Positions 43,287 to 46,826 of a stretch of DNA of 61,020 nucleotides are shown here, piece by piece. Location of the stretch: positions 82,591-143,610 of the forward strand of contig JBBECS010000036.1 in NCBI GenBank assembly GCA_040881685.1. The letters run 5' to 3'. The position numbers and the translations under genes are program-made. The notes under the pieces were generated by a model, which ran no database searches, was not told where the DNA came from, and saw nothing but the letters and a program-made list of their open reading frames with translations. The number at the start of each line of letters is the position of its first letter. The stretch's first letter is position 1. Source of the DNA: Acidimicrobiia bacterium. Its GTDB lineage: Bacteria > Actinomycetota > Acidimicrobiia > IMCC26256 > PALSA-555.

Positions 43287-43313
43287 CCTGGTTGTGATGC
43301 AGGAGGGTTCTTG

Positions 43314-44084
43314 ATGGCCAATGCTCTCGACGTGCTCGCGTCGTACCTACCGACATTCGACACGGTCGAAGAGGAACGCCAGCACCGCAAGGAGCGACTC
43401 GCGGCTGCGTTCCGCCTCTTCGGCCGCTTCGGGTTCGACGAGGGAGTCGCCGGGCACATCACTGCCCGCGACCCCGAGCACGCAGACCACTTCTGGGTGA
43501 ACCCGTTCGGCATGTCGTTCAGCCACATCCGGGTGTCCGACCTGATCCTCGTCAACGACAAGGGTGAGGTCGTCGAAGGCTCGGCGGCGGTCAACACGGC
43601 GGCGTTCGCCATCCACGGGCAGGTGCACGCGGCGCGCCCCGACGTGGTCGCGGCGGCGCACGCGCACTCCATCTACGGCAAGTCGTGGTCGACGCTGGGT
43701 CGCCAGCTCGACCCGCTCACCCAAGACGCGTGCGCCTTCTACGAAGACCACGCCGTGTTCGACGACTACACGGGCGTCGTGCTGGACCCCGAAGAGGGCA
43801 AGCGCATCGCCCACGCGCTCGGCGAGAAGAAGGCGGTCATCCTTCGTAACCACGGGCTGCTCACCGTCGGCCACTCGGTCGACGAAGCCGCCTGGTGGTT
43901 CATCACGATGGAACGTTCGTGTCAGGCACAGCTCCTCGCCGAGGCCGCAGGCACGCCTGTCCACATCGACGGCGAGCGCGCCCGCCTCACCGCGAGGCAG
44001 GTGGGCGGCCACCTCGCCGGTTGGTTCAGCTTCCAGCCCATGTACGCCAAGATCACCAGAGAGCAACCCGACCTGTTGGAGTAA
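43314..44084 (+). CDS. Class II aldolase/adducin family protein
   Basis: 256 residues. VAGHITARDPEHADHFWVNPFG is the substrate-phosphate region, HGQVHAARPDVVAAAHAHSIYG carries metal-binding His residues, and RNHGLLTVGHSVDEAAWWF the C-terminal His. The group includes L-fuculose-phosphate aldolase and decarboxylases; this ~250-residue form without a strict phosphate loop is common near dehydrogenases. GGAGG stands 7 bases before the ATG. Immediately after its stop comes the first of two hairpin repeats. Confidence 0.85.
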   Translation: MANALDVLASYLPTFDTVEEERQHRKERLAAAFRLFGRFGFDEGVAGHITARDPEHADHFWVNPFGMSFSHIRVSDLILVNDKGEVVEGSAAVNTAAFAIHGQVHAARPDVVAAAHAHSIYGKSWSTLGRQLDPLTQDACAFYEDHAVFDDYTGVVLDPEEGKRIAHALGEKKAVILRNHGLLTVGHSVDEAAWWFITMERSCQAQLLAEAAGTPVHIDGERARLTARQVGGHLAGWFSFQPMYAKITREQPDLLE

Positions 44085-44090
44085 CCACAT

Positions 44091-44131
44091 TTGCGTCGCT
44101 GCACCGGAATAGTCCCGGAGCAGCGACGCAA
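44091..44131. repeat. Hairpin repeat copy 1, left of the AbiEi/DUF559 gene
   Basis: TTGCGTCGCTGC and GCAGCGACGCAA are perfect 12-base arms around 17 bases that hold a second, inner stem (CCGG/CCGG). From 44093 on, about 45 bases match the copy at 45111 at 40 positions, in the same orientation. It could also terminate the aldolase transcript, but near-identity of the two copies needs another explanation. Confidence 0.8.
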
Positions 44132-44170
44132 GAGCGTGGGGTGTCACACCCTGGTGATGGCATTTCCGCC

Positions 44171-45091
44171 ATGTCCAAGCCTGACGTTCGCCTCGCCGAG
44201 TTCGCGGCTCGAAATCACGGCACGTTCTCCACAACTCACGCCCGGTTGCTGGGCTTCACCGATGACCTGATCGAGCACCGATTGGCAGCGGGTCGGTGGA
44301 CCGCGCTGTACCTGAACTCGTACCGGCTTGCCGGCGTGCCACCGACGTGGCAGGGCGATCTGCTCGCGGCATGTTGGGCAGGTGGCTTCCGTGCCGTGGC
44401 TTCGCATCGGTCCTCCGCCGCGCTCTGGGGTCTACCGGGCGGTCGAACCATGCCGGCCGAGATCACCACGCCTCGGTGGTTACGCGCTCGGCACCCCAGC
44501 GTCGAGGTGCACGAGACCATGGCCGTCGAGGGAGTTGACCTGGCGTCGGTCGACGGGATCCCAGCCACGAGCGTGGAGCGCACTCTCCTCGACCTTGCCG
44601 CCGTGAGCGGCGACCGAACCGTGGAGCTCGCGCTCGATGCTGCCGAGAGACGACGGCTGACGACGGCGGCTGCGGTCCGGGCGACGCTGATGCGATTGGC
44701 GAAGCCCGGGAGACGTGGCGTGCAGCGTCTCCGACGGGTGTTGGACCTCTACGCTCCCGAGAAGGGCATGTCGGAGAGCGAGGCTGAGAGGCTCCTAGTT
44801 CGCGTGCTGCGCGAGAACGGGCTTCCTGCGCCGGTGCTGCAGCACTCCATCCATAATGGCTCCACGTTTGTCGCCAGGGTTGACGCGGCGTACGTCGATC
44901 TGAAGATCGCCATCGAGTACGACAGCTACGAGCATCACACGGGTCGCCTCGCGCTCGTACGCGACAGCGCCCGCAGAAATCGGCTCGTGTCGCTCGGCTG
45001 GGCGCCGATCACTGCGACCGCCGCCGATCTCCGGAACGGTGGTTTCGTTCTGACCGCGGCGATCCGCGCAACCGCACGACTCGCGTCGTAG
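44171..45091 (+). CDS. AbiEi-type antitoxin domain protein with DUF559/Vsr-like nuclease domain
   Basis: 306 residues. The N-terminus (RLAEFAARNHGTFSTTHARL, then LLGFTDDLIEHRLAAGRWTAL) is the winged-helix domain of AbiEi antitoxins; ASHRSSAALWGLPGG and TSVERTLLDLAAVSGDRTVELALDAAERR follow. The C-terminal part (about 205-306) has the DUF559/Vsr nuclease pattern: RVDAAYVDLKIAIEYDSYEHH (D238, E249, D251), then RDSARRNRLVSLGW. Such single-gene fusions are widespread in actinobacteria without an AbiEii toxin, and none is found here. The gene is framed by two near-identical hairpins, so it may be a mobile or defence cassette. Confidence 0.82.
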   Translation: MSKPDVRLAEFAARNHGTFSTTHARLLGFTDDLIEHRLAAGRWTALYLNSYRLAGVPPTWQGDLLAACWAGGFRAVASHRSSAALWGLPGGRTMPAEITTPRWLRARHPSVEVHETMAVEGVDLASVDGIPATSVERTLLDLAAVSGDRTVELALDAAERRRLTTAAAVRATLMRLAKPGRRGVQRLRRVLDLYAPEKGMSESEAERLLVRVLRENGLPAPVLQHSIHNGSTFVARVDAAYVDLKIAIEYDSYEHHTGRLALVRDSARRNRLVSLGWAPITATAADLRNGGFVLTAAIRATARLAS

Positions 45092-45110
45092 TGCAACGCA
45101 AGCGCTCTTT

Positions 45111-45148
45111 CGTCGCTCAACCGGAATGGTTCCGGAGCAGCGACGCAA
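45111..45148. repeat. Hairpin repeat copy 2, right of the AbiEi/DUF559 gene
   Basis: CGTCGCT/AGCGACG outer arms and a perfect inner stem CCGGAA-tgg-TTCCGG. Compared with copy 1 the differences are two adjacent bases in the left arm and three single transitions; the inner-stem changes preserve or improve pairing. The same orientation as copy 1 makes the pair direct repeats 1018 bases apart. Confidence 0.8.
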
Positions 45149-45159
45149 GAGTGTGTTCC

Positions 45160-45954
45160 TTACCGCTCCGATTCGACTTGGGTGGCGTACGACTTGGTGC
45201 CGGCGATGAACGCGTCGGGGTCTTGGAACTTGTTGGCGGTGACGTCCTTGAACCAGTCGGGGACGTAGCCCTCGATCGTGCCGGAGTCGAGCATCGCAAC
45301 CACCGGCTCCACGATCGTCTCGACCGGCACCATGATGTCGGTGCTGTGGAACCCCTCCTCGTTGTCGGGGAGGTGGAACAACTCGGTGTCGAGCACGCCC
45401 GGGTTCACGATGTGCACGCCCACGCCGGTGTCACGCAAGTCCACCGCCATCGACTCGCTGAAGGCGGTGAGCGCGGCCTTGCTGGCCGCGTAGCACGACT
45501 CGATCGGTGGGCCGAGCCGAGCAGCGACCGACGAGATGTTCACGATGTGTCCCTTGCGCTCGATCAGCCCGGGAAGCAGCGCGATCGTCAGCCGGACAGG
45601 CGAGAAGTAGTTGATGCGCATGACCGTCTCGGACTCGTCCGGAGTGAGGCGCGTCACGTGGCGGCGCTTGGGGATGCCGGCGTTGTTGATGAGCACGTCG
45701 ACACCGCCGAGCTCCTGCTCGACCTTCGCGGCAAAGGGAGCGATGCCGTCGAGGTCACTGAGGTCGATCGCCCACGAACGCGAATCGGGGGCGTGCTTCT
45801 GCACGCGCTCGAGCACCTCGGCGAGGCGGTCGGTGCGCCGTCCGCAGATGCCGATGGTCGCGCCACGTTCCGCGAAGCCCTCCGCGAGCGCCGCGCCGAT
45901 GCCCGCCGATGACCCGGTGACGAGAACCTTCTTGCCTTCGAGTGAGTACGTCAT
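45160..45954 (-). CDS. Short-chain dehydrogenase/reductase (SDR)
   Basis: 264 residues: TGSSAGIGAA, NNAGI, catalytic Ser in NISSVAARLG, Tyr/Lys in YAASK. The C-terminal third (STDIMVPVETIVEPVVAMLDSG, WFKDVTANKF) is that of SDRs acting on long-chain ketones such as the 3-ketosphinganine reductase/DltE-like group. The ATG at 45954 starts the fold directly. It is convergent with the AbiEi/DUF559 gene across hairpin copy 2. Confidence 0.87.
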   Translation of the reverse strand: MTYSLEGKKVLVTGSSAGIGAALAEGFAERGATIGICGRRTDRLAEVLERVQKHAPDSRSWAIDLSDLDGIAPFAAKVEQELGGVDVLINNAGIPKRRHVTRLTPDESETVMRINYFSPVRLTIALLPGLIERKGHIVNISSVAARLGPPIESCYAASKAALTAFSESMAVDLRDTGVGVHIVNPGVLDTELFHLPDNEEGFHSTDIMVPVETIVEPVVAMLDSGTIEGYVPDWFKDVTANKFQDPDAFIAGTKSYATQVESER

Positions 45955-46008
45955 GGCGGCATGCTCGCACAACCCTGACGTGGGCGTCAGCCCGTCCGAC
46001 CACCGGAC

Positions 46009-46014
46009 TAGGGT
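46009..46014 (+). promoter_or_regulatory. Leaderless -10 box, TAGGGT
   Basis: TAGGGT, 8 bases before the GTG at 46023, heads the SDR-LLM pair. Confidence 0.55.
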
Positions 46015-46022
46015 TCGCCGCC

Positions 46023-46826
46023 GTGCCGCTCGACCCATCGACTGCGCTGCTCACCGACCGTATTGCGATCGTGACGGGTGCAGCGGTCGGGATCGGCGAA
46101 GCGATTGCCACGGCATTCGCTCGCTTCGGTGCACACGTCGCCATCTGTGACCGCGACGTCAAGAACATGGACAAGACCGCGAGCGTGATCGAAGGCGAAG
46201 GGCGACGTGTCGTCGCGGCTGAGCTGGACGTGCGAGAGGGCGACGCGGTCACAGGTTTCCTCGAGACCGTCCATGCCGAGCTCGGCGCAGTCGACGTTCT
46301 CGTCAACAACGCCGGCGGCGGCTTCTACGCCAACTTCATGGACGTCAACGCGAAGGGTCAGGACTCGCTCATTCGAGAGAACTTCGTGAGTGTCACCCAC
46401 TTCATCCGCGGCGTCGTGCCGCTCATGCCGCAGGGGGGTGGATCGATCATCAACCTCACGTCGATCGAGGCGCATCGGGCTGCACCGGGCTTCGCCGTCT
46501 ACTCGGCCATGAAGGCGGCGGTCGCCAGCCTCACGAAGAGCCTCGCCCTCGAGCTCGGGCCTCAGCACGTGAGGGTCAACTGCATCGCGCCTGACGTGAT
46601 CCCGACGCCGGGCATCGGCGGTGAGATGGGTGTACACACGCCGCTCCCGGTCGAAGGTCACGTCGACGACATCGCCGCCGCCGCGGTTTACCTCGCGAGC
46701 GACATGAGTCGATTCGTGAGCGGCACCACCATCCATGTCGACGGCGGCAACTTGGTCGCGGGCGGCTGGCACCGCAACGACGATGGCAGCTACCTCACGC
46801 ATCCAGCGATGAGGCCCGGCGCGTGA
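46023..46826 (+). CDS. Short-chain dehydrogenase/reductase with GGW tail
   Basis: 267 residues: TGAAVGIGEA, NNAGGG, catalytic Ser in NLTSIEAHRA, Tyr/Lys in YSAMK. The tail DMSRFVSGTTIHVDGGNLVAGGWHR is nearly that of the SDR at 22058, which is also joined to an LLM gene, so these are probably paralogues of one SDR-LLM module. The stop overlaps the GTG of the LLM gene (GTGA). Confidence 0.88.
   Translation: MPLDPSTALLTDRIAIVTGAAVGIGEAIATAFARFGAHVAICDRDVKNMDKTASVIEGEGRRVVAAELDVREGDAVTGFLETVHAELGAVDVLVNNAGGGFYANFMDVNAKGQDSLIRENFVSVTHFIRGVVPLMPQGGGSIINLTSIEAHRAAPGFAVYSAMKAAVASLTKSLALELGPQHVRVNCIAPDVIPTPGIGGEMGVHTPLPVEGHVDDIAAAAVYLASDMSRFVSGTTIHVDGGNLVAGGWHRNDDGSYLTHPAMRPGA

Follow-up and report, generated by a model that had tools for sequence, protein, structure and literature searches.

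The window, a stretch of 61,020 nucleotides from the genome of an Acidimicrobiia bacterium, contains a gene for an AbiEi-Vsr-like nuclease that lies between two copies of an imperfect palindrome of about 41-57 nt (Table 1). Gene starts and neighbours were taken from open frames and codon composition. A repeat search of the window returned two direct copies of a 48-nt sequence (44091-44138 and 45108-45155) with 88% identity and a spacing of 1017, where the first-pass annotation had given 40 of 45 bases and 1018. Both copies fold as hairpins far beyond shuffled sequences (z of -8.2 for copy 1 and -5.9 for copy 2). The two near-identical direct hairpin repeats that the first-pass annotation placed around the gene are therefore confirmed. 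The left arm of the downstream copy (copy 2) carries substitutions, and a chance occurrence of the copy-1 pattern in the window is not to be expected. The upstream neighbour is presumably a class II aldolase/fuculose-phosphate-like gene and the downstream one a gene that we take to encode a short-chain dehydrogenase (SDR)-like protein. The same two neighbours are found in genome G003, and no gene for an AbiEii nucleotidyltransferase toxin lies beside the window gene. The perfect inverted repeat that follows the upstream palindrome might be an operator; it is mostly retained in the G003 orthologue although the G003 palindrome differs.

Table 1. Features of the framed nuclease gene and its surroundings, in positions of the window.
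Feature	Position	Strand	Remarks
Aldolase-like gene, upstream neighbour	43311..44084	+	Outside the unit; defines the insertion site
Upstream palindrome copy	44085..44140 (core 44091-44131)	.	6 nt past the aldolase-like stop codon and 39 nt ahead of the nuclease gene start
Candidate operator	44139..44151	.	Perfect inverted repeat GGGTGT-C-ACACCC (GGGTGTCACACCC) between palindrome and gene
AbiEi-Vsr-like nuclease gene	44171..45091	+	306 aa
Downstream palindrome copy	45102..45155 (core 45108-45148)	.	Between the convergent stops of the nuclease and SDR genes
SDR-like gene, downstream neighbour	45160..46038	-	Outside the unit; 4 nt separate its stop codon and the palindrome

In the predicted gene product, a nuclease of Vsr/homing-endonuclease-like type is fused to an AbiEi antitoxin fold, which is complete. 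Pfam matches of the window protein were below threshold; the PADLOC AbiEi profile matched it with an E-value of 1.6e-27, and the AlphaFold model (pLDDT 87) has two parts, residues 1-194 and 200-305. The first part matches the AbiEi antitoxin 6y8q (Foldseek E 4e-6, Z 12.2) and Rv2827c (1zel, Z 8.8), and it is this fold that the protein has in common with the AbiE type IV toxin-antitoxin systems. Unlike in those systems, the gene is solitary, with no adjacent AbiEii toxin gene, and carries a nuclease domain. The second part matches 3hrl (Z 10.3), the homing endonuclease I-Bth0305I of the EDxHD family (3r3p, Z 10.1) and Vsr (1cw0, Z 8.0), and the family profile also finds I-Bth0305I, a "mobile intron protein" (E 1.4e-4). 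In contrast with I-Bth0305I and Vsr, however, the window system has no intron or intein, is fused to AbiEi and is framed by full palindromes. The matches to the PADLOC profile, 6y8q, 3r3p and 1cw0 agree with the earlier description of an AbiEi-type winged helix plus a Vsr-like nuclease. Among 20 framed homologues, domain matches were obtained to AbiEi_4 (15), MTES_1575 (15) and DUF559 (11), and residues E96, S202, D237, E248 and H255 are invariant (numbered along the translation from 44174, without the Met).

We then asked how common such a frame is. A matched repeat pair surrounds 63 of 108 homologous genes from across the Actinomycetota, against 2 of 1432 control windows, at a score of at least 18; at the stricter score of at least 20, the counts are 58 of 108 and none of 1432. 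The score takes both relative orientations into account, and the control windows were shifted along mostly the same loci. The frames are direct in 35 cases and inverted in 28, and about 40% of the homologues examined have no detectable matched frame. Among 198 genomes sampled from the whole phylum, 72 have members of the family according to the profile, and frames are present in several families and classes, with Aquihabitans sp. G128 among their carriers; the genomes compared were mostly metagenome assemblies. Each framed AbiEi/Vsr-like homologue has a palindrome sequence of its own. Some Coriobacteriaceae genes of DUF559-like type without a clear AbiEi part are also flanked by repeats, a near-identical pair of about 127 bp in one case (L150) and pairs of 17-18 bp in two others (L143 and L145), so that framing may reach beyond the AbiEi fusion.

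The palindrome is not restricted to the frame. Eight copies are present in the window genome (G000, 3.1 Mb), namely the framing pair and six elsewhere (contigs C36, C27, C3, C53, C32 and C14), which adjoin unrelated genes, mostly a few bases past the stop codon. The palindrome therefore does not always border AbiEi/DUF559 genes, as had been considered. In 59 of 60 relatives the window palindrome was not found; the remaining one (G016) has a single weak match (G016:C84:512-562, L035) and also contains, on contig C86, a fragmentary homologue with 50% identity to the window protein. For other members of the family, the palindromes of 12 genes were compared with 9 genomes and those of 11 further genes with 11 genomes. 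Among the matches listed (20 genomes), each palindrome was found only in the genome of its own gene, except in the congeners G024 and G034, which have palindrome types and homologous genes in common. The dispersed places number at least 28 in G024, at least 23 in G014, at least 22 in G170, at least 18 in G026 and at least 17 in G051, while, again among the matches listed, G096 has the framing pair only and G203 one further copy only. In order-level genomes, listed pairs about 1 kb apart mark the position of a framed gene. G170 contains tandem arrays of two to four palindromes, 60-76 bp apart, which are also found at both sides of its gene (L291-L295). These arrays resemble BIME/REPIN clusters; the Y1 transposases of G170 lie elsewhere on the chromosome.

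Of 46 solo copies, the majority have a stop codon no further than about 20 bp away, a tally that rests on heuristic ORF calls and in which a handful of copies have no assigned position, and promoter positions are rare among the dispersed copies. This distribution bears on two simpler views of the palindromes. In the first, the palindromes serve as operators for the protein, which would be a transcription factor of AbiEi type. Indeed, AbiEi antitoxins bind palindromes located in promoters, as established by EMSA (PMC11062541), and one palindrome stands upstream of the gene. However, the dispersed copies sit behind stop codons and seldom at promoters, and the nuclease residues D237, E248 and H255 do not vary, and we regard such a regulon as very improbable. 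In the second, the hairpins are ordinary intrinsic terminators, alike by chance or through local duplication. They are placed like terminators, at the ends of genes and in many cases between two converging genes, but no T tract is present at the window palindromes, which thus do not match an ordinary terminator, and their sequences are near-identical and gene-specific. Moreover, the frequency of framing far exceeds that of the controls, and the hairpins are missing at orthologous gene ends. Plain terminators, already doubted on first inspection, were rejected on account of the absent T tract and the gene-specific sequences, and we give this explanation almost no credence.

The form of the palindromes is informative as to what is being conserved. 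In six families, conservation is sharp in the outer arms (about 10-14 bp) and in a core, and the mismatches between these parts are conserved as well; covariation of the arms within families is weak. In the bipartite elements of G170 and G026, the outer arms and the core are kept and the middle is unpaired and uncompensated. The conserved mismatches, together with the weak covariation, indicate that the conserved entity is a two-part, slightly asymmetric site. Such a site would be easier to reconcile with recognition of DNA, perhaps extruded as a hairpin, than with a plain stem in RNA. A comparable feature is the conserved bulge that the TnpA-REP of Escherichia coli requires, which the conserved mismatches resemble (PMC8266576). 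The statement that changes between copies keep pairing is thus correct in part only: the arms covary weakly, and several families keep mismatches. Arm covariation had also been put forward as a sign of structured RNA; it was discarded as proof of RNA structure, being weak, and the conserved mismatches oppose a plain stem. An Rfam search with the palindrome gave no match.

One could nevertheless imagine a system acting on RNA, in which the palindromes are hairpins at mRNA 3' ends, bound or processed by the Vsr-like nuclease, and the genes concerned form a post-transcriptional regulon. The position at gene 3' ends and the strong RNA folding are consistent with it, and some Vsr-like domains do act on RNA, as in FASTKD4 (PMC11879112). 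On the other hand, the unpaired and uncompensated middle of the G170 and G026 elements is not what would be anticipated, genome-specific multiplication requires a process on DNA, and the AbiEi fold binds DNA in the cases studied (PMC11062541). We consider this scenario improbable.

The more similar two proteins are, the more similar are their palindromes (Mantel r 0.58, p 2e-4, 24 loci), also when only cross-genus pairs are considered (r 0.39, p 3e-4, 31 loci); the palindromes of same-genome paralogues less than 40% identical are unrelated. Some of this correlation may stem from linked DNA having been inherited together. When sub-regions of the protein were compared as predictors of the palindrome, none was a clear winner. 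Palindromes that are gene-specific and follow the protein across genera strongly favour the earlier suggestion that the hairpins are the targets of this protein.

The palindromes frame their genes, are specific to them, are confined to the genome or genus that has the gene, and are present at some sites and absent from others among congeners. For four solo sites of the window genome (on C14, C27, C3 and C32), alignment of the flanks showed that one or more congeners lack the palindrome. Changes in the gene are paralleled by changes in its two framing copies and in the dispersed ones. The window unit is kept at the same place in G003, where the protein is 66% identical and both palindromes are of the G003 type, and at the C53 site G003 again has a palindrome of its own type. 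Similarly, at two sites common to G024 and G034, the G034 palindrome is of the type of G034's own gene, unlike that of G024, and two other G024 sites have no palindrome in G034. A clean target-site signature was not obtained from the comparison of congeners because the intergenic DNA between them is too diverged.

The turnover of these sites leads us to another possibility, a homing-type element. Here, the palindrome-gene-palindrome set, or the gene with one palindrome, would be a mobile unit that cuts palindrome sites and inserts there, and the solo palindromes would be its targets or the scars of gene loss through recombination between the flanks. The nuclease is indeed nearest to the homing endonuclease I-Bth0305I. 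At C14:26397, a solo palindrome in the window genome and a site with nothing in G002, the congener G001 has a complete palindrome-gene-palindrome unit exactly there, between the same two genes; in addition, G001 lacks the unit at the window site. However, the palindrome types of G000 and G001 differ at C14:26397, and the empty window site of G001 has no palindrome at all between the two genes, so that no intact target is present there. The latter result also gives no support to the ideas that the unit was inserted beside one pre-existing hairpin at the window locus and that the empty locus would hold exactly one copy. Furthermore, among the matches listed there is at most one framed gene per palindrome type and genome, whereas solo copies number up to about 28, and a search for homologues on plasmids or phages gave no match. 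Homing of the whole unit therefore seems unlikely to us, albeit less so than action on RNA.

We rather propose, with a probability of about two in three, a REP-like two-part system in which a gene-specific palindrome of about 45-57 nt occurs both at the two sides of the gene and at scattered places in the genome, and in which the protein recognises the palindrome, cuts it and thereby spreads it. A single chromosomal gene would provide both a DNA-recognition module, the AbiEi fold, and a Vsr/homing-endonuclease-like nuclease. The protein would bind its cognate palindrome, as a duplex or as an extruded hairpin, and nick or cut it; repair or strand transfer would then copy the palindrome to new sites and homogenise the old ones. 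The multiplying entity would be the palindrome and not the gene. Insertion at gene 3' ends would be tolerated, and the hairpin may there have an additional effect on the ends of transcripts. Recognition, cutting and mobilisation by the protein are what we infer from this pattern; to our knowledge, a PD-(D/E)XK-like nuclease alone is not known to insert DNA, which counts against the proposal, as do the homologues without a matched frame and the scarcity of copies in G096 and G203.

REP sequences have so far been tied to one transposase superfamily. As in the "REPtrons" formed by REP palindromes and RAYT (TnpA-REP), a single-copy enzyme gene lies between two palindromes (PMC2817692, PMC8266576), and the palindrome is gene-specific and dispersed in the intergenic DNA of the same genome (PMC2817692). 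Conserved stem mismatches and the clusters seen in some genomes are also REPtron-like, and the location at gene 3' ends, which REPs prefer (PMC3733652), is common to both. The differences are nonetheless substantial. The enzyme here is an AbiEi/Vsr-like nuclease instead of an HUH Y1 transposase, the palindromes are longer and number a few to tens of copies, not hundreds, and the frames occur in either relative orientation and not in the inverted one alone. In the flanks of six families, no GTAG tag was evident at the foot of the palindrome. A hidden RAYT/IS200 mobiliser was also rejected: a Y1 transposase (PF01797) was not found in 17 of 19 genomes (the window genome and 16 of 18 further ones). 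The CGTC-tagged REPs are likewise short palindromes dispersed at the ends of genes, with no known transposase of their own (they "lack a dedicated transposase", PMC3733652), and several families here contain GCGTC. In those REPs, however, the CGTC tag consists of four unpaired nucleotides at one end, whereas GCGTC here is inside the paired arms, and many of our families do not contain it; the word Actinobacteria is absent from PMC3733652.

The only case known so far of a framed gene with a private dispersed palindrome is that of a transposase, unrelated to this nuclease, in other bacteria. In the open-licence PMC papers, which were the scope of our search, no published description of an AbiEi-Vsr/palindrome system was found, in accordance with the initial impression that no such framed unit had been described. 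We lean, less firmly than for the two-part system itself, towards the broader view that dispersed palindromes are propagated and kept uniform by dedicated AbiEi-Vsr nucleases throughout the Actinomycetota, independently of RAYT and REP; the REP way of life would then have a second, non-homologous origin. If true, "one enzyme, one dispersed palindrome" would be a general strategy, reached convergently with an unrelated nuclease, and a function could be given to a very common uncharacterised actinobacterial family (AbiEi_4 with MTES_1575/DUF559). Many natural protein-DNA pairs would also become available for the study of recognition, and the propagation of palindromic repeats without RAYT becomes a testable question.

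The window genome has two further homologues. The second AbiEi/Vsr-like gene (C28:63333-64181, L120) stands in an inverted frame of an unrelated palindrome, AGCAAGTGACGC...GCGTCACTTGCT, the outer arms of which are common to a G002 homologue (L131). The third (C16:33394-33972; L026, L134) is seemingly frameshifted or truncated, has a palindrome upstream, GTGCGTCCC...GGGACGCAC, and is possibly a decaying unit.
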